Assembly: GCA_020055645.1 (NCBI GenBank)
Contig: CM034547.1
Coordinates: forward strand, 16,834,513 to 16,898,512
Direction of reading: 5' to 3'
DNA: 64,000 bases
From: Tomocerus qinae
Taxonomy: Eukaryota; Arthropoda; Collembola; Entomobryomorpha; Tomoceridae
Shown here: positions 11,801 to 48,300 of the stretch, piece after piece
Numbering within the stretch: the first letter of the stretch is position 1
How the letters are laid out: each line of letters begins with the position of its first letter
Notes under the pieces: model-generated
Told to the model about the DNA's origin: nothing
The model's database searches: none
The model's input: only the letters and a program-made list of their open reading frames with translations
Position numbers and translations under genes: made by a program

Positions 11801-13608
11801 AACGACGCAGCAGATGGCAAACGCGTCTTCACATTTTCTTCGGATTCTTTTCCGTCAGTAGCATTAGGTGACTCATTAGCCTCATCTATTTTATTGCTGT
11901 TGGGGTTTTTTATTTGCTTCACCCAAAGGGGATCTTGGACAGCGGTTGACCATTCAATACCATCTCCATAATCTGAACTGCTTCTTGTGCTGATTATTTC
12001 AGGAGATTCTTCCACGATCGGAAGAGGTAGTTGAATTGGTCTGTATAAAGCATACGCATCCAGAAATATTTGCTCCGTTTGAGAAACACATTCAATTAAA
12101 TTAGCGTCAACAAGCATTTGTCCTACTTGGATGCCTTGTCCTCGCCATGTCACTTTGCGCTGGGCCAGTAGCCAATCAACTAATTCGCTGCCGACAACGC
12201 ATGAATGGAAATTCTTCATCATATTATGTCGGTGAGTTGCCCAATCTATCCCTGTCACTGGGTGGCACATTTCATCCCATAAAGCTTTTAAATTAACCCA
12301 ATCTCCTAATGACTTCAGTTTATCTTCAGGAGCTCCTCCACTAGCAGCAGCATCAAACGCATTCTCAACTTTACATCTTGAATTCGCAAATCTTTCTTCT
12401 TGGTAGCCTAATGATGCTTTTCGCCGAGGTAAAGATCGATAATGAATTGGGTGCTCTAATGATAAGCTTGAATAATTGTTGGTGCTGCCGTGTGCTATAA
12501 GATTTTCTCCAGGTGGACCACCAAAACGATTCTGCAAGTCCTCTTGGACAACTCTAAGATCGTCTGTCAGATTTGTGCTCAAATCAGCAGACTGCAAGTA
12601 ACTTAGTACGATTTTACAGCAATAGGTACATACACGAAGATCTCCTAAACAAACACAAAAACGCAATTAGTTTCAAAACATTTTTATAAATTGAATAATT
12701 ACAAATTGCTTGTCAAACTGACCTGAATACCCAATAATCTTTCCAGGTATTTCTTGATTACAGCACCGTGAGCAAAATATTTGTCCACATATACGACAAT
12801 GATGCTTTCTTCGAAATGTTGTAAATTTTTCAGCACATTCATAGCATTCTTTACTTACGGAATCCGGCATCCAGTACTTTTTGATATCAGATTGATTCTG
12901 TAAAATTCACAACCAGGACCATATTTTACAAAATTAAGTAGACTTAACCCTACACAGAATGTACGAATCCTCATTCATGAAAAAATTAAATTAAACACCA
13001 TACATTAGTTCCCATTGCGATCAGGCTACTTATACGGCGAAGGACATTTGGTAGGGTCCTAGCTTCAAAAAATGGAGATACATTTCCGTCCATAGGATCA
13101 GGAGATGGATTTGACAGATTAGAATCAGAACGATAATATGAAGGCAATGGCGACTTTCTTAATTGGTGCTGAGACTGAGGAGGCAAAGTAACATCCGGTT
13201 CCAATGAGGTCTTCTTTTCTGAGCCTACAAGAGAAATGTCTGGATTGGAAGTCAAGCTACCACTTCCGGAACTCGGACCTGATACCACTCCTCCTTGAAC
13301 TTCATCTTGCTTAGCACCATCTAAGAGCGCATAAAATTCAGTTAAAAATACTCTATTCTATTATTATTGAATTGTGTACAAACTGTGTACAAAACATACT
13401 ATAGTATTATCCCGAGAAAATTGATTATTTCCTTCAGGAATACAGAATTGTGAACTGATTAAAAAAATTATTGTACTTTATAAAAATGAAAAGTACCAGA
13501 TTTTTTCCAAAACATGAACTTGGAGAAGGAAAATTTTGCATCAGATTTTTCTTCCGCCTCCAGAGGAGGAAATTCAGTAAGCTTATTTGTAGAATCTAAA
13601 TTACTCAT
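5880..13608 (-). CDS. fab1: 1-phosphatidylinositol 3-phosphate 5-kinase (PIKfyve/Fab1), complete
   Basis: Sixteen exons give one 2067-residue frame, close to the human protein's usual 2098. Exons, high to low: 13608-13497 (ATG), 13320-13004, 12897-12723, 12644-9767, 9645-9402, 9306-9128, 9042-8852, 8778-8659, 8583-8447, 8341-7703, 7586-7411, 7328-7191, 7048-6840, 6759-6430, 6350-6189 and 6076-5880. Domains: FYVE finger at about 150-215 (WMPD, RRKHHCR, paired Cys), DEP at about 320-400, TCP1/Cpn60-like at about 595-815, a Cys/His region with YGRNDISLGMFLERYC and HSLHHDH, then the lipid kinase from about 1780. Kinase motifs seen: GGKSG at 1827, Lys1845, DLKGS at 1919 and MDYSLLVG. The enzyme makes PI(3,5)P2 on endosomes and lysosomes. 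The 2.9-kb exon is unusually long beside its neighbours. The exon at 7703-8341 could hide a further intron, but it is open and phase-consistent as one exon. Confidence 0.95.
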
Positions 13609-16443: not shown

Positions 16444-18934
16444 ATGGAGGAGGAAGGTGGAAATGTGTGTACAATAAGTAGTGCAGAACACGAAGTCAAA
16501 AATGCTGATCCTTCATGTATTCCTAATGAAAATACATCTGATACTACCGCCGAGCTTGAAACGGTGACTAAATTTAACTATCTTTAATGATAATTACATG
16601 GATATCATTTTATGACTCATTTCATTTGCTTTAGTGGTGGTGAAAGCTGCACTGTACTGCAGTGTAAAGGCTCATTTCACAATGGGTTTTAGTTGCTTTT
16701 ATATGTTCTACAATTGCACTATTTTTCACTTGTAATTAATTGAATGTTAAGGAAATTAAGGAACCTATTTGCTGTTGGGAGGATTGCAAAGAAGCCTGTA
16801 ATATGAAATGCGGAGCCTGTCAAAAAGTTACGTATTGCTCTGCTGAACACCAAAAGAAACACTGGAAGGAACATCGTAAAGACTGCTGCCCCTACATTAT
16901 CAAGGAAAACGAAGAATTTGGTTCTTATTTAGTAGCAGCAAGAGATCTGAAAGCGAATGTCGAAATAATCCGTGAAGGGCCTGCTGTACATGCCCCTGTT
17001 TACAGAGAAGTGAGTTTTAATGGCCCCGATGAAGACCCGTCAACTGCGAAAGATATTTCGTTTTGTCTGACATGCTGTACTCATATGTCAGAAAGTCGCT
17101 TGTGCTCCAAATGCAGTTGGCCTATTTGCGGAATTGCTTGCGAGGATGTAAAATTTTTCTTAATATTGACTGCTAAGCTGTACCTAATAGATATTTTTGC
17201 ATGTTTTACATACGTTTGATTCATATTAGATAGAACATTATTGGCCTTAACATTATATTATTTGCTGATTACTGTTGCAGAATTTGTGCCACAGTGAGTA
17301 CGAATGTGAATACCTGTCTAAGGGCAAAATTTCATACCTCGAGGCTTTAGTGGATAAAAATGTTCAAGATGTATACAAGAGCGTATTCATTCTTCGTTGT
17401 TTAATACTTAGAGACAGAAACCCTACTGTTTGGAAAAATGTCGAGAAAACTTACATTGCAAAGGAAGAAGAATTGGAACCATCTACAGATGATAAAGAAA
17501 TTTCTAGCAATAATGTTGAACTTTACATGCAACTTATTGCTTGCTATGGGGCAGAACATCTCGTAAAAGGCTCTGATGATCTGAAGTGTGTCTTGGAATT
17601 TATTTGTTACTTGAGTGTCGGCGATACAAAAACCGTACCTTATGAAAATGGAACACGCGTTATGTAAGCAACAAAAAAATATTTATGACACTACTTCGTT
17701 TCCACATACTCACATACTCTAAATCGTTTACCTCTTGTACGTTTTCTGAGCGTTCTCTATATCTCTACTCTATTATAAGATTATCCTCTTAAATAATACT
17801 TATTAAATATCATCATTAATGACCTGCTTATTCTGTTCTGAGTACTCTATTCTCTGGTACTCATGCATGGAATATGTCTTAAATGATAAATCTTAATAGA
17901 CTTTGGGTTTTATGATGATAGGTCTGCAATTTTTATCTTTGAAAAACAGCTGATGCTTGGAAACAATAACTGCTACCCAAATGCTTCTTGGGGAATTACC
18001 TTTCCACCTTCGTTAGAAATTGTTGTTCGTTCTGCGGTTCCGATAAAAAAGGGAACAATGATATCTATTCCTCTAAATAACGAATTTGATTTATATGCCA
18101 CATATCTCCGACAATTGTATAGATGCAATGGGCGAAGAAAGCTGTGTAATTGTCAGCGCTGCTCCGATCCAACTGAATTGCAGACTAATTTGTCGTCTGT
18201 CAAATGCTTTGAATGTAAAAAAGGATATTATACTCCCCAGAACCCCACTTGTATTAAGACCGATTGGCGATGTTGTTACTGTGAAGGTACCGTGAATTGT
18301 GATGCCATATTTGATGTCATTAAGTCAACTGAAACTTCTATCCATGAAGCTCTAGATGACGGAAACATTGAAGAATTGGAGAACATTTATAATCGTTTGA
18401 TGAGATCGACATTTCATCCAAACCACTTTGTCATCGTAAATCTAAGCTACCATATTCTCAACATGCATATGCAAGATGTATTTGGTCTTAATGAATTCGG
18501 TTTGGAGAGAGTAGTTGCTCATTGTCGCAATATACTTGCTGTTGCCGATATTGTTCTTCCAGGTCTTTCAATGGTTAGAGGTAAGTATGTAAAATAATTG
18601 GTCTTAAATTAATAAATTATAAAACGTTATTCCAAACTAATACATTAACTTTTACTTTTTGCTAGCCACGATTCTTACTTTTCAAACTAAGGCTATGTGC
18701 TTGCAAATAAAAACCCTGAATTCTGATTCTAAAGCATCCATCGGTCCTAAGAAGAATGCATTAGCCAATCGACTTATGAAAGTTCGACATTATCTTTCAG
18801 ATGCATTGGAATATTATAAGACCGATCCAAACACCACACTTCCATCGGGAGAAAATATTTATGTGGAAGAACTTGAAGCTATAAAGAGCCAACTTTTCCG
18901 AACTTCAAATGAATTACAACTTCGCAATAGTTAG
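16444..18934 (+). CDS. SET and MYND domain protein, SmydA type
   Basis: Five exons give 608 residues: 16444-16563 (ATG), 16752-17147, 17281-17663, 17922-18580 and 18666-18934. The second exon starts with a MYND zinc finger (about residues 47-90, with CGACQ, TYCSAEHQKKHW, EHRKDC), then the start of a split SET domain (YLVAARDLKANVEIIREGP) and a Cys-rich insert. The fourth exon has the second SET half, LGNNNCYPNAS, then the post-SET cluster LCNCQRCSDPTE and CFECKKG. This is the layout of arthropod SmydA proteins, named after lysine methyltransferases. The usual NHSCxPN loop has become NNNCYPN, and the GTxISIPL stretch lacks the expected catalytic-site Tyr, so methyltransferase activity is doubtful. 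A 119-codon helical C-terminal part follows. The gene converges on the ligase-like gene. The ortholog is not assigned. Confidence 0.88.
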
Positions 18935-24336: not shown

Positions 24337-27300
24337 CTAGACGATGATCGGCGTTTCTTTCGAATAATGATGGTAATGGTGGTGAACATGTTCGTGAACA
24401 TGATGGTGTTCATGTTTCTTGACAACAGGCGGACTTCCGGGTAGGGGATTAGTAGGAATTGGATTTTTCCTTGGGGAAGAAAACTTTTTCTCACCGATGT
24501 TTTCCCTCTCTAACCAGCTTATAACTTGAGCCATTGCTCTCGCATGCTCTTGCTCTCGATTCCGATGTTTGAGTTGATGGGGAGAGGCAGTATTGGCTAA
24601 ATTGGTATTTTTATTTCTAGGTGACAAATGTTGACTGAGAATACATCCACCAAGAATTTCCACACTCTCCTCTTGATGATGGTGTAGAGTATTTGTATTA
24701 TTTTGATTGCAGCACATTTGAGAAGGAATTGCTAATGGAGATGGTTGCGTCAGGAGCTGATCTCTATCTGAGAGTAAATGGTATTTGAACAGATTTTGAC
24801 TGAGGTCGTGGGATCTCGATCTGTGATGACCATGCTTTTTACAAAGATGGTGATGTTGACCAGGGATCCCTCGGTGAACTTGGGAGTCGTACACTTTGGC
24901 ACCAAGACCAACTGGGACACGGGAACACAAATGAGTAGCATCCATCATTTTCTGTTTGCACAGGTTTTCATTCACCAGAGGTAGAACCGGGCAAGTGGGG
25001 TCAATCAAATGATTGTGAGAACAGGGGACTGAGGAATGCTGTTGATGCTGAGTGTGGTCGTGACGACAGCAAGGTGTCACATTGTTCTTCTCCATGTTCG
25101 CTTGCAGAATTTCGAACAGGTCGGGTCGCTGCAATGAACAAGCCCTCTCCCTCCACTTTTTACGATTTCGAAGGGGAGATGCGCTACAATCTCGAAATAC
25201 TTCTGGGGAAAGATTTCTACAACCTCGACATCCCAAGTGGGCTGAATTTGGTAACCGGACAGAATTAAACTTGGGCTTCTCGACATGGGAGTAACGATCT
25301 TTGTTATCTCTTTCACGACGTCCGCTGCCACCTCGCTCGCGATTTAAATTCTCTTGAATTGTAACATTTACGTTATTTCGCAACTTGGGTCGCCCGTTTG
25401 CTGGTGATGAGTTCACGTTGCCCATTTCGCCGGGAGATAAGTTGTTGTTTTTGTTGCTTGGGTGGTGGTTGTTAGAATTTGAGGCTTGCTTCTCCGGAGT
25501 TACTGTCAGTCTCACTTTGATAGTTTTCTTGCCGCCTTGAGGGACCGTTATGGAATCGTTGACTGCTCCGTAGATACTCCTCACTAGTCCAGCAATATCC
25601 TGTCAATTTCAAAAGAAACATTCCCATTTAGTATATTTATAAGGATTACATTAGTCATCTCACATGACAAGTTGACTAGAATGAAGTTAGACCTCCAAAA
25701 TAAAAGCCTCGCCCTAAGAAAACCTCTCAACCAGAACCAACATTTTCTCGATCTACCCACTACCCTACATCCTTACTAAAACAAAACTACTACTGGTATT
25801 CATACTTCATCGTACCTACATGACTTTATATAAGAAGATTCCTACCAAGTCTTAAAACTGATACACCTACTTAAGTACCTCATCATAACTGTCACTGAAA
25901 ACGACTGCTCCCTAAAAATGATTTTTACATTGGTAATTGCTATGTGATTGATAACAGTGTGGCATATTTTCAACAGAAAATAGATAAAACACTCACGTCT
26001 TTGGTAATCTTCCCGTGTCCGTCTAAATCGTAAAAAGTGAAGGAAAACTCCTTTCTTTCTTCACCGGATTCACTTCCTTCCACATGAACATCACATTCGA
26101 AATCCTAAACAGAAATACAAAAATCTATTAACTTCAAGTCAAACATTATTTTCTCTTAGCATATCTTAGATAAGTCAACAGCCCATTTCCATACAACGAA
26201 AATCTTACGCAAAACATAAATATTTCGTCTCACACCCAAAATTCAACCAAACCCATTTATGTCTGAGCACAATATCAAGAGTCAAAACCAGACGATGATA
26301 TCGAGGAGTATGACTTGTTAAATTGCCTTACCCATATCTCCCTAAACTCAAGTTATGCTGACTATAGTCAGAATATTTACATGCACTAGATTTCCCTTCG
26401 CCACTAAGATATTCGAGCTGAGCAGACTGAATTTCTGAAGAATTTAATGCAGGCAGGGCTTTACAATTCAGAAGAATCTATCTACACCAACTAACTCAAC
26501 TAAATAATGAAAACATCAGATTGAGCGTTTTTGTTTTATTCGGATAAAGTTCCAAGAGACTGTCATACAGAGAAGAATAAAATGTATTTGTAAAAAGCAA
26601 CCCCTGCCAATTTGCATAGAGCATTTCTTCACAGTCTTGCTAAGAGATACGCCACAGAAAGGTTTACAGCATTCATAAACTGGATTTTCTACAGAGGAAA
26701 CTCAAGGATGTGGATGTCACTGCTCTGCCGGTGCATAATAAGCTAAGTCATTTAAATCTTGATTCGAGATTAAAGATAAAACTCAATTCGATTCAACTCA
26801 TTCAAAAACAGTCGGCGGAGAGACAAAAAGGATGAAAGTCTACATTAAAGGAAGCTTGGCTGGTTATGGTTGGTCTGACTTGACTTCTTCTCATCCTGAT
26901 AATACATATGTGTGTACATACATGTACCGAGTATATGTACTTCTTACCAAACCAATAGATACTTCGTCTGATACAGTCACTCTGTGTTAACTCCCAGCTA
27001 ACTTACTGGCACGACTAAATCAAAGATCCAATGACCTTTGAATTTGCACATTATTATACGCTTGGAAGAGCAAACGTGTAGCATCTCTGTAGAAGTAAGC
27101 TAAAGACAATCTACTACCTCATCTCATTGGGCTTGCCTTGTCGTCATGTTGTAATATATTTTTTAACCAATGTACATAGTAGTTGTAAATATGCAAATCA
27201 TTTCTTTATGATTATTTCGTATCTTCCCTTGGCTCCTCATCAAATTACCTACTTACGCGTACATTATACTTACTATCACTATACTCATCTTACGACTGAC

Positions 27301-30300: not shown

Positions 30301-33300
30301 CTATTTTGAATATTCTACATTCTATAGAAAATGCAGCAAGTTTCACATTCTGAACAGCACTTGGTTAGGTGCTCTTCATTCGGATTCTTTTATTACATCT
30401 TGACGCACATGTTAAAAGTTGTAAAATGCTCAATGAGGCAAAATTCCACGACGCAAGTATAAGTTATACCGATAAGGAGTCAATATCTCTAAATGTATAG
30501 GAAATAGGACATTCCTACTTATGAATTGCATAGAGGAGGTTGTTATGCTCATGCAATGCACATGTTAAGCTAACTAAATACAAATACTCAGCGTTTGTTT
30601 ACTAAAGTTGAGCTGGATTTTTGTCGTTAGTATGTATATGGTAGACATGATGTGTTGAAGGTATCTAGCTGTTTGTCGTAGACGTAGCAATACCTACCTA
30701 AGTTGTTCACTGATCTCACATCACATTTCCAATCTACTTTAGCCAATAATAATATGTATAGAGGAGATGTTTAAGAGTCAGTTTAACATACAATGCATGC
30801 TCACGAAAAGAAGGCACAAACTCTTTAGAATTTTCTAAGCATTTCTATGCACATGAAATGAAGAGAGGAATGGATGAAATGGATCGGATGGTCTCCTTAC
30901 ATACAGAATAACATCACGACCAAGATGAACGAGCATCTTCTTCATTTTCTTTGCTGTTCTTTGGCTATTCTGTCTGGCTGGTGCCCTTCCTAGCCCCCAA
31001 CTATTTCAACAAGACCTATTCATCCCATTGCATTCGCTCCTCTCTCCATTTATCTGTGTACTCTCTGTTCAGCCTTTAAATTCTCTCCTTTGTTGGTCTG
31101 TGTGGTTTAGTTTTGGTTTACAATTTACACCACACCAACCTTTGCCTGGTATTATGTCTTCTTCTATGGATTACAGAATATCTCTTATATACGTGTACCT
31201 GAGTATTATGCTCAACATACCTACATGTACTTATCAAATGCACACCTAACCTAATAAATGCGCAATGCCTTTTTCTAGATTCTTATGAATCCAATCTATC
31301 TCCATTTCATTCAAGGATTTATTGGCTGACGTGACTGCATAAGATACACACACATATAAAATCATATAAAACCTTGCGTTATACCTATATACTATATAGT
31401 TATACCCGGAGGTTGTTTTCTATAAGCTGGCTATTCTATACTACAGACTGCCTTTGTAGACTGTGTTTTGTTTATTGGATATGTAAAGAAAAAATCCTGT
31501 TTCTTCAGGGGAAACTTACAATTTAACAGTGGAAACTTTTCCAATGAGCTCAATCCATCACCATCAAATGTAGTTATTGACAAGCAATCTAATACTATCC
31601 GTACAAAATCATACACAGATAAACTTATGCTCACTACCTAAGTGCTAGTAGGAAATTGCCCTTCTTTTGTAACATGACCTTAACAAGGAAAATGTTAAAA
31701 TAAACAAAAATATTAAGTTTTCTCATCGTGATTAACAGGTATTCAGAAATTTTCAGTTTTGCCTTCCCTTTTTCCTGCCCCTTAGTTTATACCTTTTGAT
31801 GACGAGTTTTTAATTAAGGAGGAAAGTGAGAATATGCACTTCATAATGTTCCTATGATCGTTTCTACAGATAACAAATGCTACGTACTACGAATTACAAA
31901 CCTATTCATTCTTCTGGTAACAGACATAACAAGAAACGCTTTTTAAGGTATAAATCATGTTCTCCTTAAATGGCTTTGGTCGAATTTTAGTGTGAGAAAT
32001 ACACAGAACAACCACCAAAAATGTTGTTTATTGTTCAGTAGGCAAGAAATATTTATGTTTGTAGGATTATCTACAAACTGTAAGCAAATGCAAACAAACC
32101 TCAAATTTAACTTCGTTCGACAAGAATTCGGGATGATCATGGGAATGTATTGAGGATTCCGAAGAGGCAAGACCCGCATTCACATGAGCGCCATTGTTAC
32201 AAGAGGAGGATGTATCATCCCTTACAAGGTCTTCCGTGTCAGATGGTCTTCCATCACTTGCGTCCGAACCCAACACTAAAAACAAAGAAAGATACATTCA
32301 CAAATTAATGAGCTGCATTTCAACATAAATATAAATATCTGATTGGATTCCTTTACGAGTTTCTACAATACAAACTGACATTAACTTCGTCTGAACAACA
32401 ATCTACATATATGGATAATCTACCAAGATTCATGATTCATTCCAGAATTTTTCATCCACGGGGGATTTCCACTTTTAATGTGCTATCCCAATGTAAATTC
32501 TACCCATCAACAAACACAAATCCACCCACTTCAAACACATTAAAATACTATTCTATTAAACTTATTTTCTCTTACTTGAAGGTTTTCTACCATTTCTTTG
32601 AGAATAAGTATAAATTAATTTATATCAACTTACAGATATTCTTGACATGCGAATAAATTTATAACGAATGCAAACAGTGCTATGTATTAACCAACATGAC
32701 AATGGCCATTTAACAATTAAATCAAGACGAGAAAACGCAACTTTTAAATAGAGAATAAAAACCAAAAATGACTGCCAACGGGGCAAAGTGGAAGTAATTA
32801 AATCACCCATTTAACATGCAGCCTGAGTAAACATTTAAAATTCCGCTAGTAAACTAAGGGAAGAAGCATCTGTAATCTTCTAATCAGTACGAAGTATTCC
32901 TGATCATGTTCTTACATAACATAGCTACTAGTCGAAGAATTATGCATGTAAGAAATGCGGTTTTGTATGAATGAATGAACTTGTATGACGGAGTAAGGAA
33001 TGCGACCGTTTTTGTTACGGATTGGAGTAACTATGCCATTCCATGTAATACTACGTCTACAAGTGCAACAAAACAAAGGGTCTCTACGAAAAGGAAAGAA
33101 GGTATGTCTATTTGTTGGAAGGTAGATAAGTCCAGGTAAGTAGGGTTCCATTATATCTGTATGGTTTTCCCCTTATTTTCAGTAGACACTTATGTATTAC
33201 ATTAGAAGGAAGTTGAGAGTGATCTTTGGGTCCCATTCCCGCTTTAGTAAAAGGCAGGTAAGCAGATAGAAAAGAGAGGGCAACGGCAGATTATGGAATC

Positions 33301-36300
33301 TGTCCGTCAAAAAAGAAACCACAGAGCAGGGAATGATTAGGATGGTGTTGGGTCTGAAGAGATGGAAGTATAACATGGTTACATATAATAATTCGGTTGT
33401 TGTGTGCACCTTTTAGTTGTCTCATGGGTTGTGTGTGACTATTATTCTTGTCTCTCTGGTATTCCTATTTATTTTGCTGGCTCACGGTTCATGAAACGAA
33501 GGAATGTGAGAGAAGAATGGAAAGAACTCAGGGTGTGTCTCCCTCAAATCCTTTGCCAAGCCAAACCAAACGATATCAAGACAAACGAAACTAACTCAAG
33601 ACACAGATCCATTCATTCATTCTTGCCTAACTAACTAAAGTATAGCATCTGAGGAACAAAAGCTGGATTCCATTATTCGCATCACATAGGTAAGAGAGTG
33701 AGTTGAGTAAGTAGACAAGACAGGATGGGAAAAACAAAGTGGAAACAAAGCCAAGTTAAACCAAACTAACTAACTCATACTATGATAATAGCGTTGAGCT
33801 GACTGAACATTAAACATTAGTCTAACTCGGATTTGCTTTGGCTCTGGCAAAGAAAAGAAAACCAGCTAGCAAATTGTACATAATGAAGTGGTTGCACCAG
33901 TCGCAGTCACTTCTCAAGGATCATCAACGTTCAGCTTTTTTGGCTGAAAAGCCGCATCCGCGGGTTTCTCAATGAAATCAAATGAACATAATCTTGTCTA
34001 GCACAGAGATAGGCATATCTTATATTTATATCGTTGACTCGACGTTCTTGATTCTGTAAGACAATTATACACCACAATATACTTACTGCTTATAGTCTAC
34101 AGTGCACTTGAGCGCTAGTGCATATAGATTGTAGAATATATCTATTCATACTGTGCGTGGACTGCGTATCTAAAACACAATAATATTTCTGTTCATAGAT
34201 AGGTAAAGGTACCTGTTAAGTAAGTACATATGTCAAACACACGATCTTTGATTTTAATACTGCAGTACACAGGTTAAGAATTCTGTAATATTATTTACAA
34301 TTAGTGTAGTAGGTACACTCTAAAGATGCGGCTCTTCAAAGTCCTGCGCTCGCAGGACTAAAGTGCTATTTCCTCGGAGTTTGGGACCCTCCTGCGATCT
34401 CAGCACTTCAGGAAAGTGCTGTGATCGCAGCAGGTAGGAGTACCGGGATTACCCGGACTGCTAGGCTTCTGCAATGGTTAAGGGTTCCACGTAACCCCGG
34501 TACTTTAATCTGCTGCGATCGCAGCATATTAGGATTGTACTACTATCCCCAGGAATGGTTTTTATGCAGTGTCGCAGTATACAGCATGATATGCATTAAT
34601 ATATGAGCAAAAAATCGCCATTTAAAGTAAAATAAATACATTATAATATTTATTACATTTTTAATTATCGATTAAATAATTAATCACTGCATATATAAAA
34701 CATTTACTACTACTACTAATACATACTCAGATACTTATACTTACTTAACAATTGGCATTGCATGTAGAGAACTCTACATACAATGCCACAAAACAGAAAT
34801 AAAATAATAAAAGCTTTTGCACATTTTAGACATTCAAATTTATAATTTAACCAATCGAAACGCAACGAACGACGAAATCGCTGTATATTATTGATAAAAA
34901 TAGTAATCAATAACTAAAAACTATGAATTAACATTGGCACATTCGATTATAATGCATCAAAAAACAAACACTGCGTATATATAGCTAATAGAACGTAATT
35001 AAATAAGGTGAACTAAAATTTGATAAAATAAATGATTAAAATTTAGTACATATTTGACCTATCAACGCACGGAGATTATAAGATAGCTTGCAGCTTCCCA
35101 TTTGTTTCCCGTAGATGCCATATTGCAAAAACTGCCAACATGCTTTGGTTTCAGCAGGAAACTCATACCCAAATACAAAAAATGTCTTGAAACACGTGTC
35201 GATTGCCTGAATAAATGCCGTTTCACAGGGAACTGCAACGTCTTCAAAGACAACAAAAGTTTGGATGAGAGAGATATCGTTTAAGCTTCCTCTGACAACA
35301 ATATGAGGTTTATGCACTCTGCTTTTAGATAATACTTCAGTAATTGCGTCGTTTGACTGAAAAAACCAAAAATTAACAGTCACTGTATGAGATTCGGATA
35401 CGGTTCTCAATATAAAAAGGATGCTTGATACTACATGGTACTCAGAGTACTCTGTAAGTGCCATTGAGTGTGTAGCATTTTATATCTTTGTATTATTTTT
35501 ACACAAGTCGGTTATTGTATAAGAAACGGAATGGATCATAAAACGTACCGATATGAACTTTAGAATGCATTCCCTGTTACGGATGGCAGGTGACCGTTTA
35601 CATGTTCCTCGTTTTGAAACTTTCGTTGGCCTTTTTGCATAGTAGTATCTGGAGATGCTAATACTGTATTTGGCAATTCAGTATTTTTTGAATTTGTGGT
35701 AAATCCAGAATATCTCAAAATGTGTGGCAAAAGTAACAATCCCACGCATGCGAATTGATCTATACATTTCAAAAATGAATTACAATGATATAATGGCAAA
35801 GTATGCTAAATATTATATCAAATAATAAATTAAATAAAAACCATTTTTAATATTACCATCCGACCATTCGTGACTGCAAGTGTTAATACCTATGGATTTT
35901 AAATGCCTGGATTGTTTCCTTCTGCATAGGAAACTAATAATTTACTAGCTGGAATCCAATTTTGGTAAAGCTTCATCGACAACGATTTGTAGTGGACGTT
36001 AAAATCCTGAACTATCTTTACCAAACAAACATGCATATTTAAATATAGTCAGTGACAGGTTTATATCAATTGTTGTCAATGTAAAAATTGCAGGGGAAAT
36101 AGTACGCAGAGTACTCTGCGTACCATTTCCATTGCAATTTCGTATGCAAAATAAAAGTATACTATTGGCAAAGTAACACTTACCATTCCTACTGTGTCAA
36201 ATAGACGTGGCATAGCAGCTTTAGTTGCAACAAAATCATTTTTCCTTATTATTTTTCTACGAGAGTATACTGTGCGCTCCATTAGAATTGGTACATCCTT

Positions 36301-39300
36301 GGACAGCATATTAGCCTTCAAAAACTGAATTGTATCTTCATCATCCACTACTTCTTCTGTAATAATTAAATACTTCTGACCAACCAAGCAGTCAAATTTA
36401 TAATTTATAGTAAATTTAGTTGAGTATATGTAATTTACCTTCGTTAGAAGTCCATCCACTCGCTTCCTGTTCTGTTGTGATTATCTCACGGTTTTTCATT
36501 AATTTTTTTCGCTGCGATTGAAGTCGTTCTACCAAATACCCAGTGGCTCTGGAGTCACCATTTGGAACATAATACCAAATTTCTTTGCCCAGACTTGCTT
36601 CGGTAGTACATCCCAAGGAGGGGAAGTAAGTAACGATGTCAGTAGCTACATCAGATAGTGCCTCCTTGGATGGGCTGTTAATAAAACACCGCCATTATTT
36701 TAAAGTGTTAACATATCAGATTAATGCCAGAACAAGAACTTACTACAATCCGTGGTTTCTAATAAGGACATCTACCAGCACTTTTGAAATTTGAAGTCTG
36801 TCAGTCTCATAAATAAACTGTTTGTTAGGTATTTTTATGTTGAAAATGTCCATCGTACGGGGGTCGGCAAAAAGTTCCGTTGTCAAATCCTAAAATAAAA
36901 GTTAGAAATTATTATTAGTTTTATTTGGAAAAAAATGTATGTAAAAGTAATGCTCGGATATAATATCGACACTTACAAAGTGATAATTTGACCTCTTGCT
37001 ATTACGATGGATTGATGTAGGTGCAGGTGAAATAAAAATTGTACTAACTTCGCCCGTATGTAGAACTTTTCCAGCATCAGTAACTTCTTGATCCAGGGTA
37101 AATGAGGTTCCAGGTAAACAGCTGATGTCCACAACTATATTATCTCCGTCAATAGAACCATTTTCAATCTCGTCTACTGGTGCTTGTGCAACTTTATACT
37201 GATTTGTTTTTACAAAAAATTTTAAACAGACTATAGATTACTTTTTCTCCAAAATGTAATGACACTAACTGTCGAGTACTCGACAGCATGTGTCATTAGT
37301 TCTTTGAGTGACTATTTACAACTTACAATAATATCTACCATTTGAATGGCATAGTGATATATACTTTATCATCATTAGGAACAAAAGACTGAAAAGAGTA
37401 CAGAGGCATATAAAAAAGAATATCTTTTGGATGTGTAACACAAACTTCATTGTCAGATTGGATTTCGTACATATTATAAAACTCATTGGCTGTCCCAAAG
37501 TATACAGTTGTTAAAAAACATAATTTTGTGTTATATTTAACACAAAAGTTCAATTTACCAAATATAGGAGCCCCGTCTAAAACTTTTAAAAGTATATAAC
37601 ATCCTATTCTGTAAGAGCAACCATTATATTCCACATTGTCTATTATTTCTACTATTGAGTCCTCTGCCGTATTGTAATATCTTGTAAGTTCTTCTTTAAA
37701 TAATTCAAAGTCCGATATGTAACTTTCCTCACATATATTGTAATTTAATGTATCAGCTTTCCAACAAAGTGTTGCTAAATTCTCAAAACATTTATGCAAT
37801 TGATATCTTTGAGAGGTAGTTTTGGCAATGTTTTTAAAATTACAGCACACATGGGCTACACCTTTGAAGAATTTATGTGTACTTTCAAACGTCATTGACC
37901 AATACTGCTTTAAAGGACCTAAATCTTTAATTATTCCTTTGTAGTGCGTCATATGATGATGTTTAGGTTTTAAATGCTTACCAGTGACTTCAATATACTT
38001 AATTAAATATTCAGTAATAAGTAAATCTAAACGTAAAATTGTTGCAGTAGACATTAATGGGGTTAATAATAAAATACATATTTCACGTAAAATATAACAT
38101 AAACGCCAATACACGTTGTCTGTGTCAATCTTATCAGCTAATAATAGAGGTAATACAACAACTAGACACATAATTTGGGATGCTGTTTGACCCCCCGTTG
38201 CATCATTGTAAATGTAGCTATCCTTTACTTCAGAGGGTTTAGATTTAACGTAGTGATAACCATAATTAAAAGATTGTATTCGATAATTTAACGTGTGGAG
38301 TGTAATAAGTCCATTGTCAATAAATTCCCTAATCATTAGCTTCAGAAAATCTGGAACAACCCCTTCAAACACATCATGCATAATATCAAAGGAAGTGAGA
38401 GTGGTTACATGATGATACGGGAGTTCGTTCAATATTGTTTCGAAATGAATTCCAGTTTCAGAAAAACATTTTTTTGTCACGTCAGCATCGTAGTTAATTT
38501 TTGTCCTTAAAAGATTTTTATCTTCTGTAACTGACGATTGACAAAAAGATTTACTCATTTTGCAACGGCGACATGGATACTTAGCATTAAATCCCTCCGT
38601 AAAACCAGTAATTGTATGAACTCCTAAGTTATCCCCTAAAAATTGTGCTAGAGCAATGTGAATAGTTTGAGAATTATTCTGACCCTGAATGCCGAGTACT
38701 CGTCCTTCGGGGTCAGAATTAACTTTCAGGCCTGTTTCCCATAGTACTTTTAACTCCTCCACAATATATTTCAATACCGCATTTGGTGTACAAGATTTTA
38801 AATCGTCTGCTTTCAATGATGCCACTAAAAAGTAATTCTTTACACTTCCCAAAAATGTTGAGGAAGGTCAATGATTGAAAAGTAAAACTGCGCTAGCTTG
38901 TGTTTTAAAATTTTCGATCCAAGGTTCACCACTTCTATTTCGTCAAATAAAGGTTTATAAAAAATGTGTCATCTGGAAATTCAGTGTTCTTAAAAAACTG
39001 CCCGTCCCTAAAGTGGGTGTAATTGTATGGAATATCATTGATCTTGTTTATATTGCCTCGAACTACCTCCATGAATCCAGGTTTAAAACACAAACGTTTC
39101 AAAGTTTCTGCAATGGGAACATATTGCATTGACAAAGGCCTGTAATTTTGAAAAACTCTTCCCTCTCTCATTGAATACATTATATCGCTATCTAGACTAA
39201 TTGCTTTAGGAGCAAGTAAGTGTCCATCTTTTTCTAACAGACGCTGAAGCTTGTAGAATGTGTCGACTTCGATAAAAAAACTCATGATTTTTTTAATGTC

Positions 39301-42300
39301 ATTTTGAACGACCTCATTGCTGTTGGGCAAATAAGTTGTTACTATATGTTGTATAATTTCGCCTACTAAACTTTTTATATCTGCAATTATCACATTCACC
39401 GAACTTATCGGAAATTTTCCTGATGTTAAAATAGTTCCTAACAGCTTCAAAATTACAGATTTAACATTTGCTGATGTAAAGGAGTCACTAAAAGTTTGTC
39501 CGTCTATAGAGTTGGTGTCTTCGTCTACTATATCGCTAGCGTCTTCTGTATCTACATTTCTAGTTTTTGGTAAGGAAAACTCTTTATGGGACCTTAGTAT
39601 ATGACGCGTATGTCGCAAATAACTACGTCTGTTACTTACAAAGTTACAGTGACTGCACCTATATAAATGGTTAGCATTTAAATTTTTATGTTGAAGTTGT
39701 AAATGTTCCAGAAAAGTTTTATACGACATAAATCCATAACTACAAGCACAACATATGTACACCTTTTTGCCTCGGAGCGCTGCAATAGTTGTCGACAATT
39801 TGATCCTTGGTCCCATTTGGGGTATGAGGTCTATCAGCCAATTATCCGGAATGTTCAGAAAACTCTCGTAATCAAATTGCTGTTCTGCAAAAATATTGTT
39901 TATAATAATAGTGAAATATTAGCAACACTTGACTACATAAACATATATAAATATAATGAAATGATAAACTGATGATAATGATAAAATGATGTACATATAC
40001 CTTCAAATGCTGAAATGTAGCTGGCCATTCCAAGGTCTGCGAGTACTTGTTTCCAGTCGCCTTCCATATTAATATCGCACGTCAAGTACTTGAAGTGCGA
40101 TATCCACGAAGCAGACTGACTATTGTCAACGATGATCTAGGACTGACTGATGTATATTTAGCGTGAAGTGACGATAACGATAAATCAAAATTTGACAATA
40201 AATAACCAAGAATGACAGTAGAATTAAAGACTCAAGTGGATTGAAGCGTGGTCGTCCTTTACAAATACAGTAGCAAATGCCCGTATCAAGCGATTCCACA
40301 CGGCCGCCACGTGGCATAACTTACACCACAGCACTACTACAAAGCGGTTAGATTTGTTTTCTGCCAGCGGGATTGTGAATGATCACAATTTTCGAAAAAG
40401 CGTGTTTTTTAATGACCGATAAAAGGACTGAAGAAATAATCGTGTCCGAAGTAAGGGACAGATGGTTGAATATACTTGATCGTCTCTACCCTAGCAACAC
40501 TTCAAATTACAGCAATGACCCAGAGGAAATAATTGATTCCATTCTTTTGGAGGAAATTCAGTCACGAATGCTGTTTCTTCGGAAAGGAAACCAAATGTTA
40601 TCTCGGTCTGTTACTACAAACTTTTGTGTTTTTGCAAACTTAACGTTTCGTAATAGCATTTATATAGTGGTTAATAACTTTAATATTGTCATTACATTAG
40701 GCAATTCAAGAAAAAGACAGCTACTTGTTCAATTACCAGTATTTTAACTCAAAAACAATCTACGGGACAAATCAGCGACACTAATTTTGCTGAACAAGGA
40801 ATCCAGCTAATAGATTCAGATATTTTGGATGACAGCACCATTGAACACATTGACAGAGTTGGTGTAATAAAAAATAATTGGGATTTTAAGTTGAGTCCGT
40901 CTCCTAAAAAGACGTCAGTTGATGCTATTGACGGACAGAAAGAAAAGAAGGCAAAAATTGAAACTGAAAAATTAAGAAGTAAAAAGCTATTGTCAAAGTA
41001 AAATCATTCACATTCCTCTATAGTCACTATATAAAGTATTTATATGTATTTATAGTGATTTTCGTTTACATTGAACTGTATTTTGATATTGCCACATTAT
41101 ATTTATTATCACTTCTAAGCAGGCTGTTTGACAGTGAGTCGGACGAAGATTAGTTAGTGATTATTGACAGCATAGATTCGAATATCTATGACTTGCGTTT
41201 GAACTACAGCCTACGTGTTCTCATCCTGGTTTTGCCATTCTCACATTGGAAGTTGGCGTTGCTTAATCGTAATTTGCTAGTATCTCAAATTTTATTTAAA
41301 TGCAAAAGAAAGTAATCCCGTGTTCCTTAATACAAATGACCCTGCATGTAGAGAACTCTACATCCCGGGTCGTCCGGGGAAAACAATGGCTGCTAGTCTA
41401 CTACAAAAATCGAAGTAAACTTTTAAGCATAATTTATACTAAATATTACCTATTTTTATCGTAGAAGCAAAGCTAGAGGTCTAATTTTGTTCTTATATTT
41501 CAGAAAGAGGAAAGTAAATTGGATGGTTGAGAATTCAAAAAACGAAAAGATATATGGTTGTGTGCAAAGACCCTTATGGGAAATATACCCCAAACTTAAG
41601 GATGCCATCGCTGTAAGAAATTCTGAAGCGGACTTCATGCCCGAATTTACTTGCCACCCTCATAAATCTTTTAATAAGACTTGTGAAGACAGTGACAAAG
41701 GTAATTATTTACCTTGCAATTATTAACTATCAATTTAAAGTACACTGATGGAACTAAAGGAACTTTCTTTTGCTAGAGTCGAAAATAGTATATTATTATA
41801 TGTGCTTAATTGTCCACAATTAAAATAATATTTTCAATTCTGCCACGTGGAATGCTCCTCCCATTTAATTTGTGTATTTTTATTATTTGAATTTAAAATT
41901 GCTTATAATATAATGGTTTCGAGGGACAATTTACATGACACATGACATGAGTTGCTATTATTATTACAACTGGGTCATTTTCAGTCAAACAGACCTATAA
42001 AATATGTACAATTTTAAATTCCAAATAAATATGTTGCTCTGAGGTGCATTCCACGCAGGAACGTCGAAAATAATATTATCACAACTGGGTATTAATCTGT
42101 ATTCGCAATTAGTTTATATTATACAGAATGTGGACATAAGTAATTACCCAGTTATGATAATATTGCCGGCTGTGTCATATGGATTGTTTCCCCCTGTTCA
42201 ATATATATTGTTTTGAAGTCAAATTTGTACATATGAACTGGGGGAACATTTGATGTGACATAGTTGAAAATATTATTGTATAATTGGTTTACTGAGTATC

Positions 42301-45300
42301 CCGTTATAACATTAATTTAATATCCACTCTGTCATGTGAAATGTCATTTTTCAGTTGCAAATATTTTGAATTCAAAATTGTAAATACTAAAAAAATATTA
42401 TAACTGGTTAACTGAAAATTACTCTGAGATAATAATTTTGTTGATTGAATAATATGCAATGATCGTTCAAATCATATTTACAATGTACAGTTTTGAATTT
42501 TTTATTTATAATATTTTTATGGAACTGGAAGAACACATTCAACATGGCAGGTGGAGAATAATATTATATGCAGAATATTGACACAAATAATTACCCAGTT
42601 ATTATGATTTCGTCTCTGCCTTGTGGATCGTTCCTTCAATTCGCAGTTCAACTTATATTTTTTGAATTCAAAATTATATTATGAATACATGCTGGATAAC
42701 TTTCCTTATGGCATAGTCAAAAATTTTATTATGGTTAGTTGAGAATTACCCAGCTATACTAATATCGTTCCTCCGCAGCTTTTAATTTTTTACAATGTAA
42801 AATTCAAAATTAAATTTAATTTAATTTAAATTAAACTTCAGGAACAATCCACAAAACAGAGTCGATATTATTATTACTGGGTAATTATTTGTGCCCTTAG
42901 TCTATACTGAATGAAAACATTATGAGAATTAACCAGGTATAATAATATTTTAATCTCCGTCATGTGGAATGCTTCGCCTGTTTGTGTGTACAATTTTGAT
43001 TTCAATAATTATATAACCATATTTAATAAATAATAGAGAATAAAAGGAATTATATGTATTTTTCTTATATAGAGTTTGGACATCCATATTATAAAGAAAT
43101 TTGGAGCTTTAGCTTGCCAGAAGATTTGAAAACAATATTGCCTCCAATATCATTTCTTAAAGCCAAAATGCCGACAATTGTAGACCCTGTTTGGATTCAA
43201 GATGAATCAACATTTTCTCAATTTATTGATTATTTGAATAATTTAAGTGTACTTTTTATGGATTTGGAAGGTCATAGTTTCAGGTCTTATAGGGGTATTA
43301 CATCATTGGTACAAATTTATGATGGCTATAAAGTGTACTTCGTAGATACGTTGTCTTTGTCAGGAGAAATTCATAAACTAAATGCAGTCACCACTAACCC
43401 CACTATAATTAAGGTATTAGTAGGTGCTGCAAATGATGTTAGAAGTTGTGAGAGAGATTTTAGTCTGTACTTTGTTGGAGTAATTGATATACAACTGTTT
43501 TATCAAGTCCTTTATCCCTTTGAGCCTCTCGTTGGATACGATGCTTTGGTGGAAATGTATTGTGGTATTACTGTAGGTAAAGGAATTAGATCCAGCGATT
43601 TCAGGCAAAGGCCTTTACATCATAAGCAACAATTATATGCATACTTAGATGTTCTTTTTTTACCCCAAATTTTAAATTCAATTATGAATGAAATGACTAA
43701 TGATAATATTAATATGGCTATGCAAAATTGTAAAGACTTGTGTCTGGTGAGGTACTGCAAGCCAAAAACATTACCATGCTCATCTGTAAATAACGAGAAT
43801 CATTTAGAATGGCTGAGACACAAAGTAGCGAAAGTTGAAGATGTAAATCCTGAGCTGGTGTTAAGTAAAACTGCTATGAAAAAACTTGTGTCTTTAAAAG
43901 AAGTAAACGAGTTAAAAATTCGACAGGAGGTGTGTTTTTTGTCAAAGTTTTGGGACACTGAGAACCGGATGTCCCTTTTATTGCAGTGTTTAATGGGTGC
44001 CGATGATTTGATTCATACCGCAAACAGAGTACTCTGCTTGCAAATATGTGAAAAGAGTTCTCGGCCACCATTTTGCTTAAAGTGCAATCAAGTAGGCCAC
44101 CTGCGCCAGTCCTGTACAATTAGCAAGGCAGAGGCCAAAGCTATTAAAAAGCAAATCTTTATAAATAACCCCGAGAAGAGAAAGGCTGATAATCGGAGAA
44201 AGAACTTAATAAAACGATCAACGAGCGATAAGAGGAGAGTTAGAAACAGAAAGACTCTTTTGCGAAAACGACGTAATAGATTAGAAAAGCTCATGGACAA
44301 ACGACAGTTAGAATAACTGGTTAGCAATTTGTCTAAATTCAGCTAATTTTAAATTTGTCATCTAATTCATTTCAAATAATATTACGATGCACCTATGGCA
44401 AAATCATATACATACATGATGGAATATATATAGAATAATAAACGAATAAAATATGCACAGAATATTATGTACTTCACTGATTAATATGTATGTATTAAAG
44501 TATGTATGATATCTGTTGTTCTAATTACAAAACTCATTCTGCTTTACCATCATTTACTGTCTACAATTCATTTAATTAAGGATGCTATGCTACAAGACCC
44601 CTTTTGGCATACCACACAATGCATAACGACTCCCAGGAAATGTAGCACTTCATCAAGTGCTGAGGATCTCAGCAGTCGAGTCCTGCGACCGCAGTAGATC
44701 GCCAAGTCCTGTGTACCCCGGTGCCCTTTTTTCTTAGAGTGTACCTAAGGATCTTCAATCTATAAGTTTGCCTATTAATCCTGCATACAAGTACCTAAGT
44801 ACCTATGAACATCCAGGCAGCATGCAGATCAACAGGCACTCCAACTAATGTAACGTAATGTACGTATGTAATGTTTCGCATCTGATTCTATCAAAAGGAG
44901 AGAAGAGCATAATCCACATTCCTTCAACCACAGCCTATTGCTCCCCTGGTGGGTATTAATGCCCCAACTTGAATGCATTATTACCACAATTATTAGACTC
45001 AAACGTGGATAAACTGTGAAACGCTGCCACAACCACATAGTGAAAACATATCACACACAAACAATCAGTGCAGACGTAGATGACTATGTTGGAAAGTCCA
45101 ATGGACAGATTTAGTCAAAAAATATTTATATGTGTCTACGCTACAAAAATGACCAAATTGCATTTTTGAAGACAGTATTATTAGTTCTATATACCAGAAC
45201 CGTACATAGTATGTCTAAATTGGGTATTTACATTTCAGATTGTTAAGCAAGTAAATACAAAGACATGTGATTGGTATGGATTTACTTATATAGGAATGTA

Positions 45301-48300
45301 CTTGATCAAGAAAATAAAAACTTGGCCTACAAGAGAGACGAGACAAAACAAGCTATCTAACAACAGGCCAGCCAGGCTATGGCTATGATGATACCGAAAT
45401 GAAACGAAATAAACGAGCTGCAGACTTGCCTAGACATTTACGTGTACAACATTCATAAAATACATGTACATGTTTTCTATTTTATTGCCTGCTGAATTGT
45501 GGCATGGTATACTGCAATCTTATGTGGGCTTGTAGAAGGTACCTGTCATGGCTATTATATGCTTTACTTTGTCTTGCACTTTGTACCCACAATGAAATTC
45601 TGAAAGAAAAGACGTCTACGTAGATAAACAATAAAACTAATGCAATGGCAATGTTATGTGAGTGAGGCAAACATCAGAGATCATGATGATCAGAAAAAAC
45701 TAGCACGCATATACCCTGCATGTTATTATTTCGCATTGTTTGCAGCTGTACTTGTACTTATCTGCACACATATTATTTACATACCCACAATTAATAGTAA
45801 TGTATACATTAGCTACATACAAATCTGAGCTGTATTCAATTTAATTCAAACTAATAATCTCTCGAATCAAACTTCAAGCTTACTATAAGTGTTCTCTCAC
45901 TCCATATAAATCTATATGGCTAGTATAATTTTCAATCCAGTTCAACCTTCAGGCATCAGCCTTTATTAACATTCACCATCTACCCTAAGTATACAATTTA
46001 TATAGATTAGTTCTGATATCAAATTACACCGTCGTCCATGGAGGTAGCAATAGGTACATACTACCTACATGTATACTAATAAGTAACAACAACCGGTACA
46101 GTAATCTATGTAAGGTAGGTAAGCTTAAAATCTCCTTAGCACTGCCAAGTCTTAATACATTATCAAAACACTTTGGCATTTGGCATACATTATATTAATT
46201 TCCGTCCAACCTATCCTCACAGGTGATTTGAAAGATAAACAAGGAATTAATACTACTCTATATGCACGAAAGATCTATATGATATTTCAAGATATACCAC
46301 AACAGAATTTAAATCGTCTTAAAATGAGTAATAGCATCCTGTAGTAATGAATTAGGTATAAAATCTGAAGTCACAGTACCATGCATTAACGAATTGTCAA
46401 CAAACGGCTAACTATTAAATCATTCTCATAACACTCCAAAGTGAGACCGACAGAGACAGACTGAGATGTGGTAAGTTGTGTGGTGTGTATAAGCATTGAC
46501 AGACAGAGACAGGAAAAGGAACAGACAATTTATTTCCACGAGAGAAGTCTCTAACTGTAGATATCACAAGAGTGTGTAGGTGAAAGACTAAGAACTTTGA
46601 ACGTAACTTAACAGATTACCTGACGGGAGATAAAATTCAAGTAGGATTGTTCAAGCGAACTGTCATTATATTATCTAGGAGACAAGACAGAAGACTCCTC
46701 ATCAATGACCATTTTTATTTCTCTTCCTTCCTTCCAGGAACAGCTGCAGTTGTTTCAAACAGTTTTCCCAAACTCGAGAAATACAATTACGAGCTAACGA
46801 AACCTACCTAGCTCTAGCCCTAGCATCATCGGCTTAGTTTTAATAAGGACTCGGAATTTCCACGCAGCCTTCAAAGACAACTTAAAATAGACCGTGTGCT
46901 CAGGTTGGTAGAGGGAGAACAAACGGAGACTCTCTTTACTCACTGTTCATGAAACAATTAACAATGAATGGAGCCACAGTTCTAATTTGGGCTAATTACT
47001 CATCACATCACCGGAAAATGCCATGTTGAAAAGCTGTTGGCAACACAAACGACTCTATAGCTTCAAATCCCTACTTATGCAGATGGAGTGTAGTAGAGAG
47101 TTCAAGCTTCAGTTTTATGAGCCTTTCACACTATGTACCTATATAGTTGTCGACTTAGTGCTATATTGTACTATATCTAATACCCAGTGGACAACAAACA
47201 TTTTATTTGCAATACGTAACTTCTTTTACAGTGTAAACAGTCCTAATAGCATTAGGGTTACAGTATAGAGGCTTAATGGAAAGCATAGGAGTGCTTAGGT
47301 CCATAAATATATTTTTCACTCCAGGTCGGCACATCAAAGGCGGCCGGTAGGGTTGACTGCAAACACCAAATCCTACTAGCATATCCTAATTACCATTGTC
47401 AAACTTTAAAGACTACGAGCAAGACGACTTGAAAAGTCAAAGGACTGTGAGACCCATTCCAGACTAGTAGAATAATACTTATTGAAAATAAAGAATACCT
47501 ATTCCTATAATCTTTTGTGAACACTCTATATACTATATGAAATATATAGAATTTTTGGTGCCGAGTTATTTTACGTATACAATAGAAACTGGAAATACAG
47601 TCCCCAGTACTTGTACTTAGAGATACTTGGCATTCTAGATAACAGACAGAAAAGATTACTCTCGTTGCGACTACAAAGCTTCCTGGAATTTAAATCTGAT
47701 ACTGACGACTCACATTCCTGGGAGCAATGGAAACAATAATACATCAGTTAGTGTACAGATAAACACATACCTTGCCTGCAGGCAATTGCAGAGCTAGCAA
47801 TGAGCTATCTATTAGCTAATAGATCAAGATAAAGTGAGTCATGGATTTTCTCTTGAGTGCTTGGCTGTGTATTTATAGTCATTGCATTCTGCAGTGTCCC
47901 TTCTTGTGTTTCTGCGGTTTTGTCTCTCTTATGTATACATTTTACTTAGCTATGCACTTAGGTGCACACTAAACATAAATAGCATAGGCTGTATAAACAA
48001 ATCCAAGACAATATATTAGCATGGTTGTAGTTTGTAATAAGCAACGGACTAAATGAAACTCAAACATAAAAGACAAAGCGACAGGGACCGACAGAAGAGG
48101 AAAAGACAAGTTAAACCAAATGCAACTTCAGCCAACCAACGAATCATGCTAACAAAGTTACAAGCAAATAAGTAAATCATAAAGCCTTGCCGCAACTGAA
48201 ACATTCTATCAAAGAATGCACAATAGAGCAATCAAAGCAATTAATGATAGTTATTGTACATTCCTTCCATACATGCTAACTCATATTATTGTCAAGAAAG

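Follow-up and report, generated by a model that had tools for sequence, protein, structure and literature searches.

In a 64,000-nucleotide stretch of the genome of the springtail Tomocerus qinae (contig CM034547.1 of assembly GCA_020055645.1, forward-strand positions 16,834,513 to 16,898,512; this whole stretch is referred to as the window), we found a CACTA/EnSpm DNA transposon that contains a gene for an RRP6-like 3'-5' exonuclease, and this gene is very probably maintained cargo of the transposon. The observation is of interest because it shows a cut-and-paste transposon that carries, apparently under constraint, a relative of the nuclear RNA-surveillance exonuclease that helps to silence transposons.

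The transposon and its copies

The element and its termini have the following coordinates in the window:

34316..44741: CACTA/EnSpm element, 10,426 bp; homology to copy 2 limited by TA-flanked ends; exact inverted ends
34314..34315: TA target-site duplication, left; TA at the ends of copies 1, 2 and 3
44742..44743: TA target-site duplication, right; TA at the ends of copies 1, 2 and 3
34340..34526: left subterminal repeats, palindromic units of the AGTCCTGCG type; family D4, four copies
44679..44694: right subterminal repeat; family D4, one copy

The termini read CACTCTAA...TTAGAGTG, and the extended end GGTACACTCTAA has exactly two perfect matches in the window, at 34312-34323 (plus strand) and 44734-44745 (minus strand); the family D4 repeats near both termini, four at the left and one at the right, are of the AGTCCTGCGCTCGCAG form. 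We searched the genome from which the window comes (334 Mb, 115 contigs) and found three copies of the element, the window copy being copy 1; a 307-bp query taken from the left end matched at three genome places only, i.e., at these three copies. Copy 2 (contig C2, approximately 23.01-23.02 Mb) is 99.5% identical to the window over positions 34314-41889 and 99.8% identical over 41885-44744, and its flanks are unrelated to those of the window (approximately 1 kb on each side was tested, with window positions 33300-45800 as the query). Both copies 1 and 2 read TA, CACTCTAA...TTAGAGTG, TA. The range of homology to copy 2 (34314-44744), taken together with the TA-flanked ends, defines the transposon unit as 34316-44741, and this unit has moved recently. 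Copy 3 (contig C1, 36.37-36.39 Mb) is diverged, and the pieces of it that align are 68-79% identical to the window copy. Its ends are similar and are likewise bordered by TA, so that CAC..GTG (CA..TG) termini and a TA duplication on each side were seen in all three copies. A 2-bp target-site duplication is described for CACTA relatives in animals. A sequence-only reading of this DNA had proposed a CACTA-like transposon with a nuclease inside its terminal repeats; the limits that it gave proved to be exact, and the repeats bracket the exonuclease in copies 2 and 3 as well.

The exonuclease gene

The exons and domains of the gene are as follows:

40379..40605, plus strand: exonuclease exon A; first ATG at 40379 or 40412; 67% at the amino acid level in copy 3
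40701..40997, plus strand: exonuclease exon B; in copy 3, 46% at the amino acid level over model residues 104-175, exon start unmatched
41504..41700, plus strand: exonuclease exon C; 59% at the amino acid level in copy 3, donor site kept
43073..44316, plus strand: exonuclease exon D, with DEDDy domain, linker, CCHC knuckle and basic tail; open in all three copies
43189..43695, plus strand: DEDDy 3'-5' exonuclease domain (PF01612), residues 46-214 of frame 43054-44313
44074..44118, plus strand: CCHC zinc knuckle; E-value 0.23 here, above the cut-off in homologue P0001

The reconstructed gene model has four exons on the plus strand, encodes 654 amino acids and is divergent from the transposase gene. 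Exon D is 65% identical in copy 3, in which the donor sites after exons A, B and C and the acceptor site before exon D are visible; the exon matches and splice sites in this copy support the four-exon model, which is otherwise a reconstruction. An intact nuclease of 489 amino acids had been read from the sequence; the gene model is longer. The third intron, between exons C and D, is larger than that of the window by 1.9 kb in copy 2 and by approximately 10 kb in copy 3. In the window, the intron at 41780-43030 is AT-rich and contains diverged direct repeats (D1) and several inverted repeat pairs.

The exonuclease matches PF01612 with an E-value of 7.7e-28, and the residues D70, E72, D128, Y195 and D199 (numbered in frame 43054-44313) are invariant in comparison with P0001 and four RRP6-type proteins, two of which carry the RRP6 name from their source. 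The acidic residues noted by the sequence-only reading are kept, and the degenerate active site of an EXD1-type pseudonuclease was not found. The CCHC knuckle, which had also been noted, is weak in the window protein, in which it is below the cut-off (and is unlisted for the 654-residue model), but it scores 23.9 bits in P0001, above the cut-off of 20.8; the basic tail is common to both proteins, as is the architecture of exon D, at 43% identity. P0001 comes from a metagenome contig and was the one exonuclease relative found in a single-sequence protein search, whereas a search with the window protein and P0001 together added RRP6- and RNase D-type proteins only (the label "RNase D" for P0110-P0112 is our own). 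No exonuclease relatives were found in scans of viral_contigs and genome_contigs, and a PHROGs search with two proteins yielded no match.

The top family for the exonuclease is RRP6, both by profile and by fold, and the upstream linker aligns with it too; DNA exonucleases such as WRN were among the same comparisons, with lower scores. EXD1, to which the gene had been assigned from the sequence, shows 14% identity in the fold alignment and is not in the sequence match list at E<=10 (an absence that alone proves nothing); this identity was rejected because RRP6 is closer by profile and by fold. The PMC2NT N-terminal domain is a feature of RRP6/EXOSC10 orthologues, and it had no match in the 654-residue model at E<=1 with filters that drop weak matches; therefore, we file the exonuclease as RRP6-like, as judged from sequence and a fold model, and not as an orthologue. 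An HRDC domain after the exonuclease looks suggestive by eye, but it is unsupported (hhalign probability 1.9%, E-value 0.026).

Selective constraint and linkage to the transposase

We compared exon D of the window and copy 3 over 411 codons and obtained a proportion of synonymous differences (pS) of 0.824, which is saturated, and a proportion of nonsynonymous differences (pN) of 0.217; the two copies of the exon have thus diverged under constraint on the protein. For the same pair of copies, dN/dS was 0.167 for exon A and 0.108 and 0.202 for two transposase segments. Exon D is free of interruptions in every copy, whereas the transposase is damaged by at least one lesion in each of the three.

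The genome yielded 39 transposase matches, which merge into 31 loci, and only three of these loci have an exonuclease match within 30 kb, at 5.7, 7.4 and 14.8 kb; it should be noted that the transposase and exonuclease lists score the best candidates only and that both are lower bounds. One of the 28 loci without such a match is on contig C75, which has no exonuclease match. Given a match near three of the 31 loci found, we rejected the idea that the exonuclease regularly accompanies this transposase family.

Other exonuclease loci

The exonuclease query yielded at least 88 genome matches, 85 of which are distant from the element copies, and 18 of these 85 loci were examined (L012-L028 and L053). 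An integrase match adjoins 16 of the 18, namely all of L012-L028 except L013 (16/17), with none at L053; the four integrase queries were drawn from the distant exonuclease loci themselves. In Pfam comparisons, rve was above the cut-off in L018 and a Tf2-1-like SH3 domain in L024, and matches in four others were below the cut-off; judging from these matches, the integrases are probably gypsy-like. HRDC was above the cut-off in one of four distant open reading frames (ORFs) scanned (L016, 28.0 bits) and below it in one more. No integrase match was found in the CACTA exonuclease loci (L009-L011, with 1.5 kb on each side).

In the exonuclease tree (28 rows, 25 of them different), the window and copy 3 exonucleases form a clade with P0001 (support 100/99), and a second clade contains 16 of the 17 rows of the retroelement pool (support 99/98), with L013 inside and L024 outside. 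The locus L053 (C1:123764643), which is the best genome match to the RRP6-type protein P0106, contains an open frame of 431 codons that includes an RRP6-like exonuclease region, and no integrase match lies nearby. It may be a host gene, perhaps the host RRP6 itself, or further mobile cargo.

Comparison with known systems

Animal CACTA/EnSpm (CMC) elements share with the window element the CAC...GTG ends, TA duplications, subterminal repeats, a transposase with C2H2 and DDE regions, and an ORF2-like region; the window element additionally has internal palindromes and, opposite in strand to the transposase, an RRP6-like gene, and most transposase loci found in this genome differ from it in having no exonuclease match nearby. 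With RRP6/EXOSC10, the gene shares a DEDDy domain with its residues kept and an alignable upstream linker, but it is transposon-borne and has a CCHC knuckle and a basic tail, while HRDC was not demonstrated and PMC2NT was not matched. EXD1, for comparison, is cited as catalytically inactive, and the window exonuclease keeps the active-site residues.

Transposon-borne exonucleases are already known. Dada is a DNA transposon with a DEDDy 3'-5' exonuclease, as is the window element, but its DEDDy domain is inside the transposase (PMC3706591), whereas in the window it has a gene of its own within a CACTA element. KolobokD is an exonuclease-bearing DNA transposon of arthropods, molluscs and cnidarians; unlike the window element, it combines a DEDDh enzyme (TREX/Exuperantia/ERI1-like) with a Kolobok transposase (PMC9587614). 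Bdelloid long terminal repeat (LTR) and Penelope-like elements have, like the window element, a separate DEDDy gene (ORF3), but they are retroelements (PMC5408684), and the integrase-linked RRP6-like ORFs of this genome parallel the bdelloid Vesta and Juno. This arrangement, a DEDDy ORF beside an integrase, was seen at the 16 distant loci and not at L009-L011. The rotifer exonuclease ORFs are reported, in the same paper, to be closer to each other than to cellular homologues. TET/JBP dioxygenases are borne by fungal EnSpm and other elements and were proposed to aid in escaping silencing, and RRP6 in Drosophila is reported to silence a subset of transposons and heterochromatic repeats (PMC4577213).

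No CACTA element with an RRP6-like exonuclease turned up in the literature searched; most subscription papers and Repbase were outside this search, and absence from print is not shown by it. Since CACTA and retroelement RRP6-like genes coexist in one genome, the two can be compared there to learn why mobile elements take up this enzyme, and the question raised by the rotifer elements becomes testable, i.e., whether the enzyme serves counter-silencing at the RNA level, 3'-end processing or is ride-along cargo.

Possible roles of the exonuclease

We suggest that an RRP6-type DEDDy exonuclease gene was captured by a low-copy CACTA/EnSpm lineage, apparently earlier than the split between the window copy and copy 3, and that this gene has been carried as a maintained accessory gene divergent from the transposase. 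Its product would be an active 3'-5' enzyme steered by the CCHC knuckle and the basic tail, and it would act mainly on nuclear RNA, either to trim or remove RNAs involved in surveillance or silencing or to process the transcripts of the element. An element-borne RRP6 relative could compete with the host RRP6, strip small RNAs or finish element transcripts, and the sequence does not separate these routes. We give this explanation as a whole a probability of approximately 0.5. An RNA-level role as such falls just short of even odds; we prefer it on two grounds, namely that the closest family, RRP6, acts on RNA and that the retroelements of the same genome that carry an RRP6-like clade share with the CACTA element an RNA stage and not a cut-and-paste DNA end.

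The exonuclease might instead trim DNA 3' ends exposed in excision or integration, as was proposed for the Dada DEDDy domain by its authors (PMC3706591); the degradation of DNA intermediates was proposed for the KolobokD DEDDh enzyme (PMC9587614), and the DEDDy fold includes DNA exonucleases such as WRN. However, the closest family acts on RNA, the 28 transposase loci found without an exonuclease within 30 kb indicate that the transposase family seems not to need one, and the retroelements with RRP6-like ORFs have no CACTA end processing in common with the element, all of which leaves a DNA role unlikely. Another interpretation is that the captured gene merely rides along and is of no use to the element. 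Host-gene capture by transposons is common, only three copies were found, and synonymous sites differ more in exon D than in the transposase, leaving room for constraint inherited from an earlier location. The low pN compared to pS, the open exon D beside a lesioned transposase in every copy, and the same exon D architecture in P0001 make such a passenger quite improbable.

It is extremely unlikely that a host gene merely happens to lie between the terminal repeats or that the exonuclease belongs to another element nested in the CACTA unit. RRP6-like ORFs beside integrases are frequent in this genome, and the intron between exons C and D has repeats and, in copies 2 and 3, extra DNA, which would fit nesting. 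Nevertheless, the gene has the corresponding position inside copy 3, although this copy is diverged, and its exons match there. Chance flanking was ruled out by copies 2 and 3, and a nested retroelement ORF was rejected on the lack of an integrase match in L009-L011 (with 1.5 kb on each side) and on the clade separate from the retroelement ORFs.

Several observations weigh against the preferred explanation of a maintained RRP6-like cargo acting on RNA. Synonymous divergence is higher in exon D than in the transposase (pS of 0.519 and 0.602), so that the exonuclease may have an older history or one partly exchanged between elements, and part of the constraint on exon D may predate its present location. 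The fold model was built from an alignment containing RRP6-type rows; RRP6 typically has an HRDC domain, and none could be demonstrated here (no PF00570 match, and low model confidence in that region), and the 2,000-base contig of P0001 gives no view of gene neighbours. The tree rows include no EXD1, Nibbler or Egalitarian, and the fork at which RRP6 joins the CACTA and retroelement clades is not settled, with long-branch warnings; as a consequence, separate captures by the CACTA and retroelement lineages are likely rather than proved, and the family of origin cannot be read from the tree. The rotifer ORFs showed neither a significant departure from neutrality nor an unambiguous correlation with copy number (PMC5408684), which cautions against assuming a benefit. 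Overall, what the sequence-only reading observed is confirmed, whereas its interpretation, in which the cargo could process transposon ends or interact with small-RNA silencing, is partly supported.

Internal palindromes

Palindromes of 22-56 bp with AGTACT-like cores are dispersed across the element, including the coding exons of both genes:

34753..34788: palindrome with core GAGAACTC; not clearly matched in copy 3
35443..35454: core CAGAGTACTCTG of a palindrome; longer counterpart in copy 3
36085..36140: palindrome, 56 bp; counterpart in copy 3
37257..37298: palindrome, 42 bp; counterpart in copy 3
38676..38719: palindrome, 44 bp, within the transposase coding sequence; counterpart in copy 3
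40072..40103: palindrome, 32 bp, directly upstream of the transposase ATG; counterpart in copy 3
41338..41371: palindrome, 34 bp, within the B-C intron of the exonuclease gene; counterpart in copy 3
44020..44041: palindrome, 22 bp, within coding exon D of the exonuclease; counterpart of 36 bp in copy 3

There are five strong imperfect palindromes (score >=11) in the element, compared to two in the remaining 53.6 kb of the window, and 60 shuffles of the element gave a mean of 0.02 (maximum 1). The motif GAG[AT][AT]CTC, picked after the repeats were seen, occurs eight times within the element and once outside. Seven of the eight sites can be matched to palindromes of copy 3, among them the sites in the transposase exon, before the transposase start and in exon D, and the palindromes of copy 3 at 3821 and 8100 (joined stretch) had no window counterpart identified. 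For six matched pairs and 18 offsets (108 positions), 77 positions are paired and unchanged, three are paired in both copies with both sides changed, 26 are changed and not paired in both, and two are unpaired and unchanged; these counts indicate conservation with little covariation between the window and copy 3. Among the exon D codons for the same residue in both copies, 7/8 in or beside the palindrome are identical, compared to 122/266 overall. GAG[AT]ACTC is present in all four loci of the exonuclease-bearing subfamily (i.e., its three copies) and in none of 16 other transposase loci checked (of 28, with 1.5 kb flanks only). When seven palindromes were folded as RNA, six had no equally stable shuffle (0/200); the exon D palindrome was unremarkable (15/200). 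In copy 3 (C1:36371001-36394500; L007/L008/L029), a chosen subset of five matched palindromes is spaced by 1423, 1408, 1406 and 1413 bp; further palindromes lie between some of the evenly spaced ones, and the window intervals are less even.

On both coding strands, the palindromes could form hairpins in element transcripts or, as DNA, an array of binding sites for a dimer. An element-encoded factor, possibly the CCHC exonuclease, might recognise them and thereby distinguish the RNA or chromatin of the element from host or silencing RNA. That the exonuclease and the palindromes work together as a single system by which a DNA transposon marks self and non-self is a speculation that we consider very doubtful. 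The conserved palindromes may add a cis-acting layer to the transposon, and we know of no description of such a layer; the TNPA sites of CACTA elements are located near the termini, unlike these palindromes, which are spread throughout the element.

The transposase and other minus-strand genes

37335..39884, minus strand: transposase exon 2, C2H2 and DDE region; three collinear segments compared to P0002 and others, two frame changes here
40001..40067, minus strand: transposase exon 1, start of SAM domain; splice reconstruction
35036..37237, minus strand: ORF2 region, several open pieces, exon borders not placed

The transposase is of the animal CACTA kind, with 104 homologues in the database search and a Folsomia (springtail) protein as the top match; no transposase relatives were found in scans of viral_contigs and genome_contigs. 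D348, D442, C462/C465, H667/H671 and E691 are invariant in 14 homologues (the window protein not included), and the window protein has the motifs FDE, GDNLG, CRRC, KPKHHHMTHY and FEST. The published description places C(2)C and H(3-4)H between the second D and the E of CACTA/EnSpm (CMC) DDE transposases, and the window transposase fits this pattern under our own assignment of the residues. Pfam Transposase_21 is unlisted for the window protein at E<=1, its best match being Plavaka (0.0015, below the cut-off); in homologue P0013, Transposase_21 is at 0.0064, also below the cut-off. The SAM_1 domain scores 19.7 bits in the window protein, under the cut-off of 23; the springtail proteins P0002 and P0013 score above a SAM cut-off. 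The two frame changes are near 38.95 and 38.85 kb, where copies 2 and 3 are uninterrupted; elsewhere, copy 2 has one frame change and copy 3 has one stop codon. The ORF2 region has counterparts in copy 3 for most of its length (approximately 70-75% at the nucleotide level), and its piece 36961-36755 is weakly similar to the C-terminus of Folsomia protein P0024 (tblastn E-value 0.001, without composition correction).

Surroundings of the element

Scans of the window with Rfam (gathering scores) and for tRNAs yielded no match. The region 24337-25602, in which there is no Pfam match, resembles naked cuticle. Host genes at 6359-12666 and 16740-17219 have PIP5K, TCP1 and DEP domains, which we interpret as PIKfyve, and a MYND finger.

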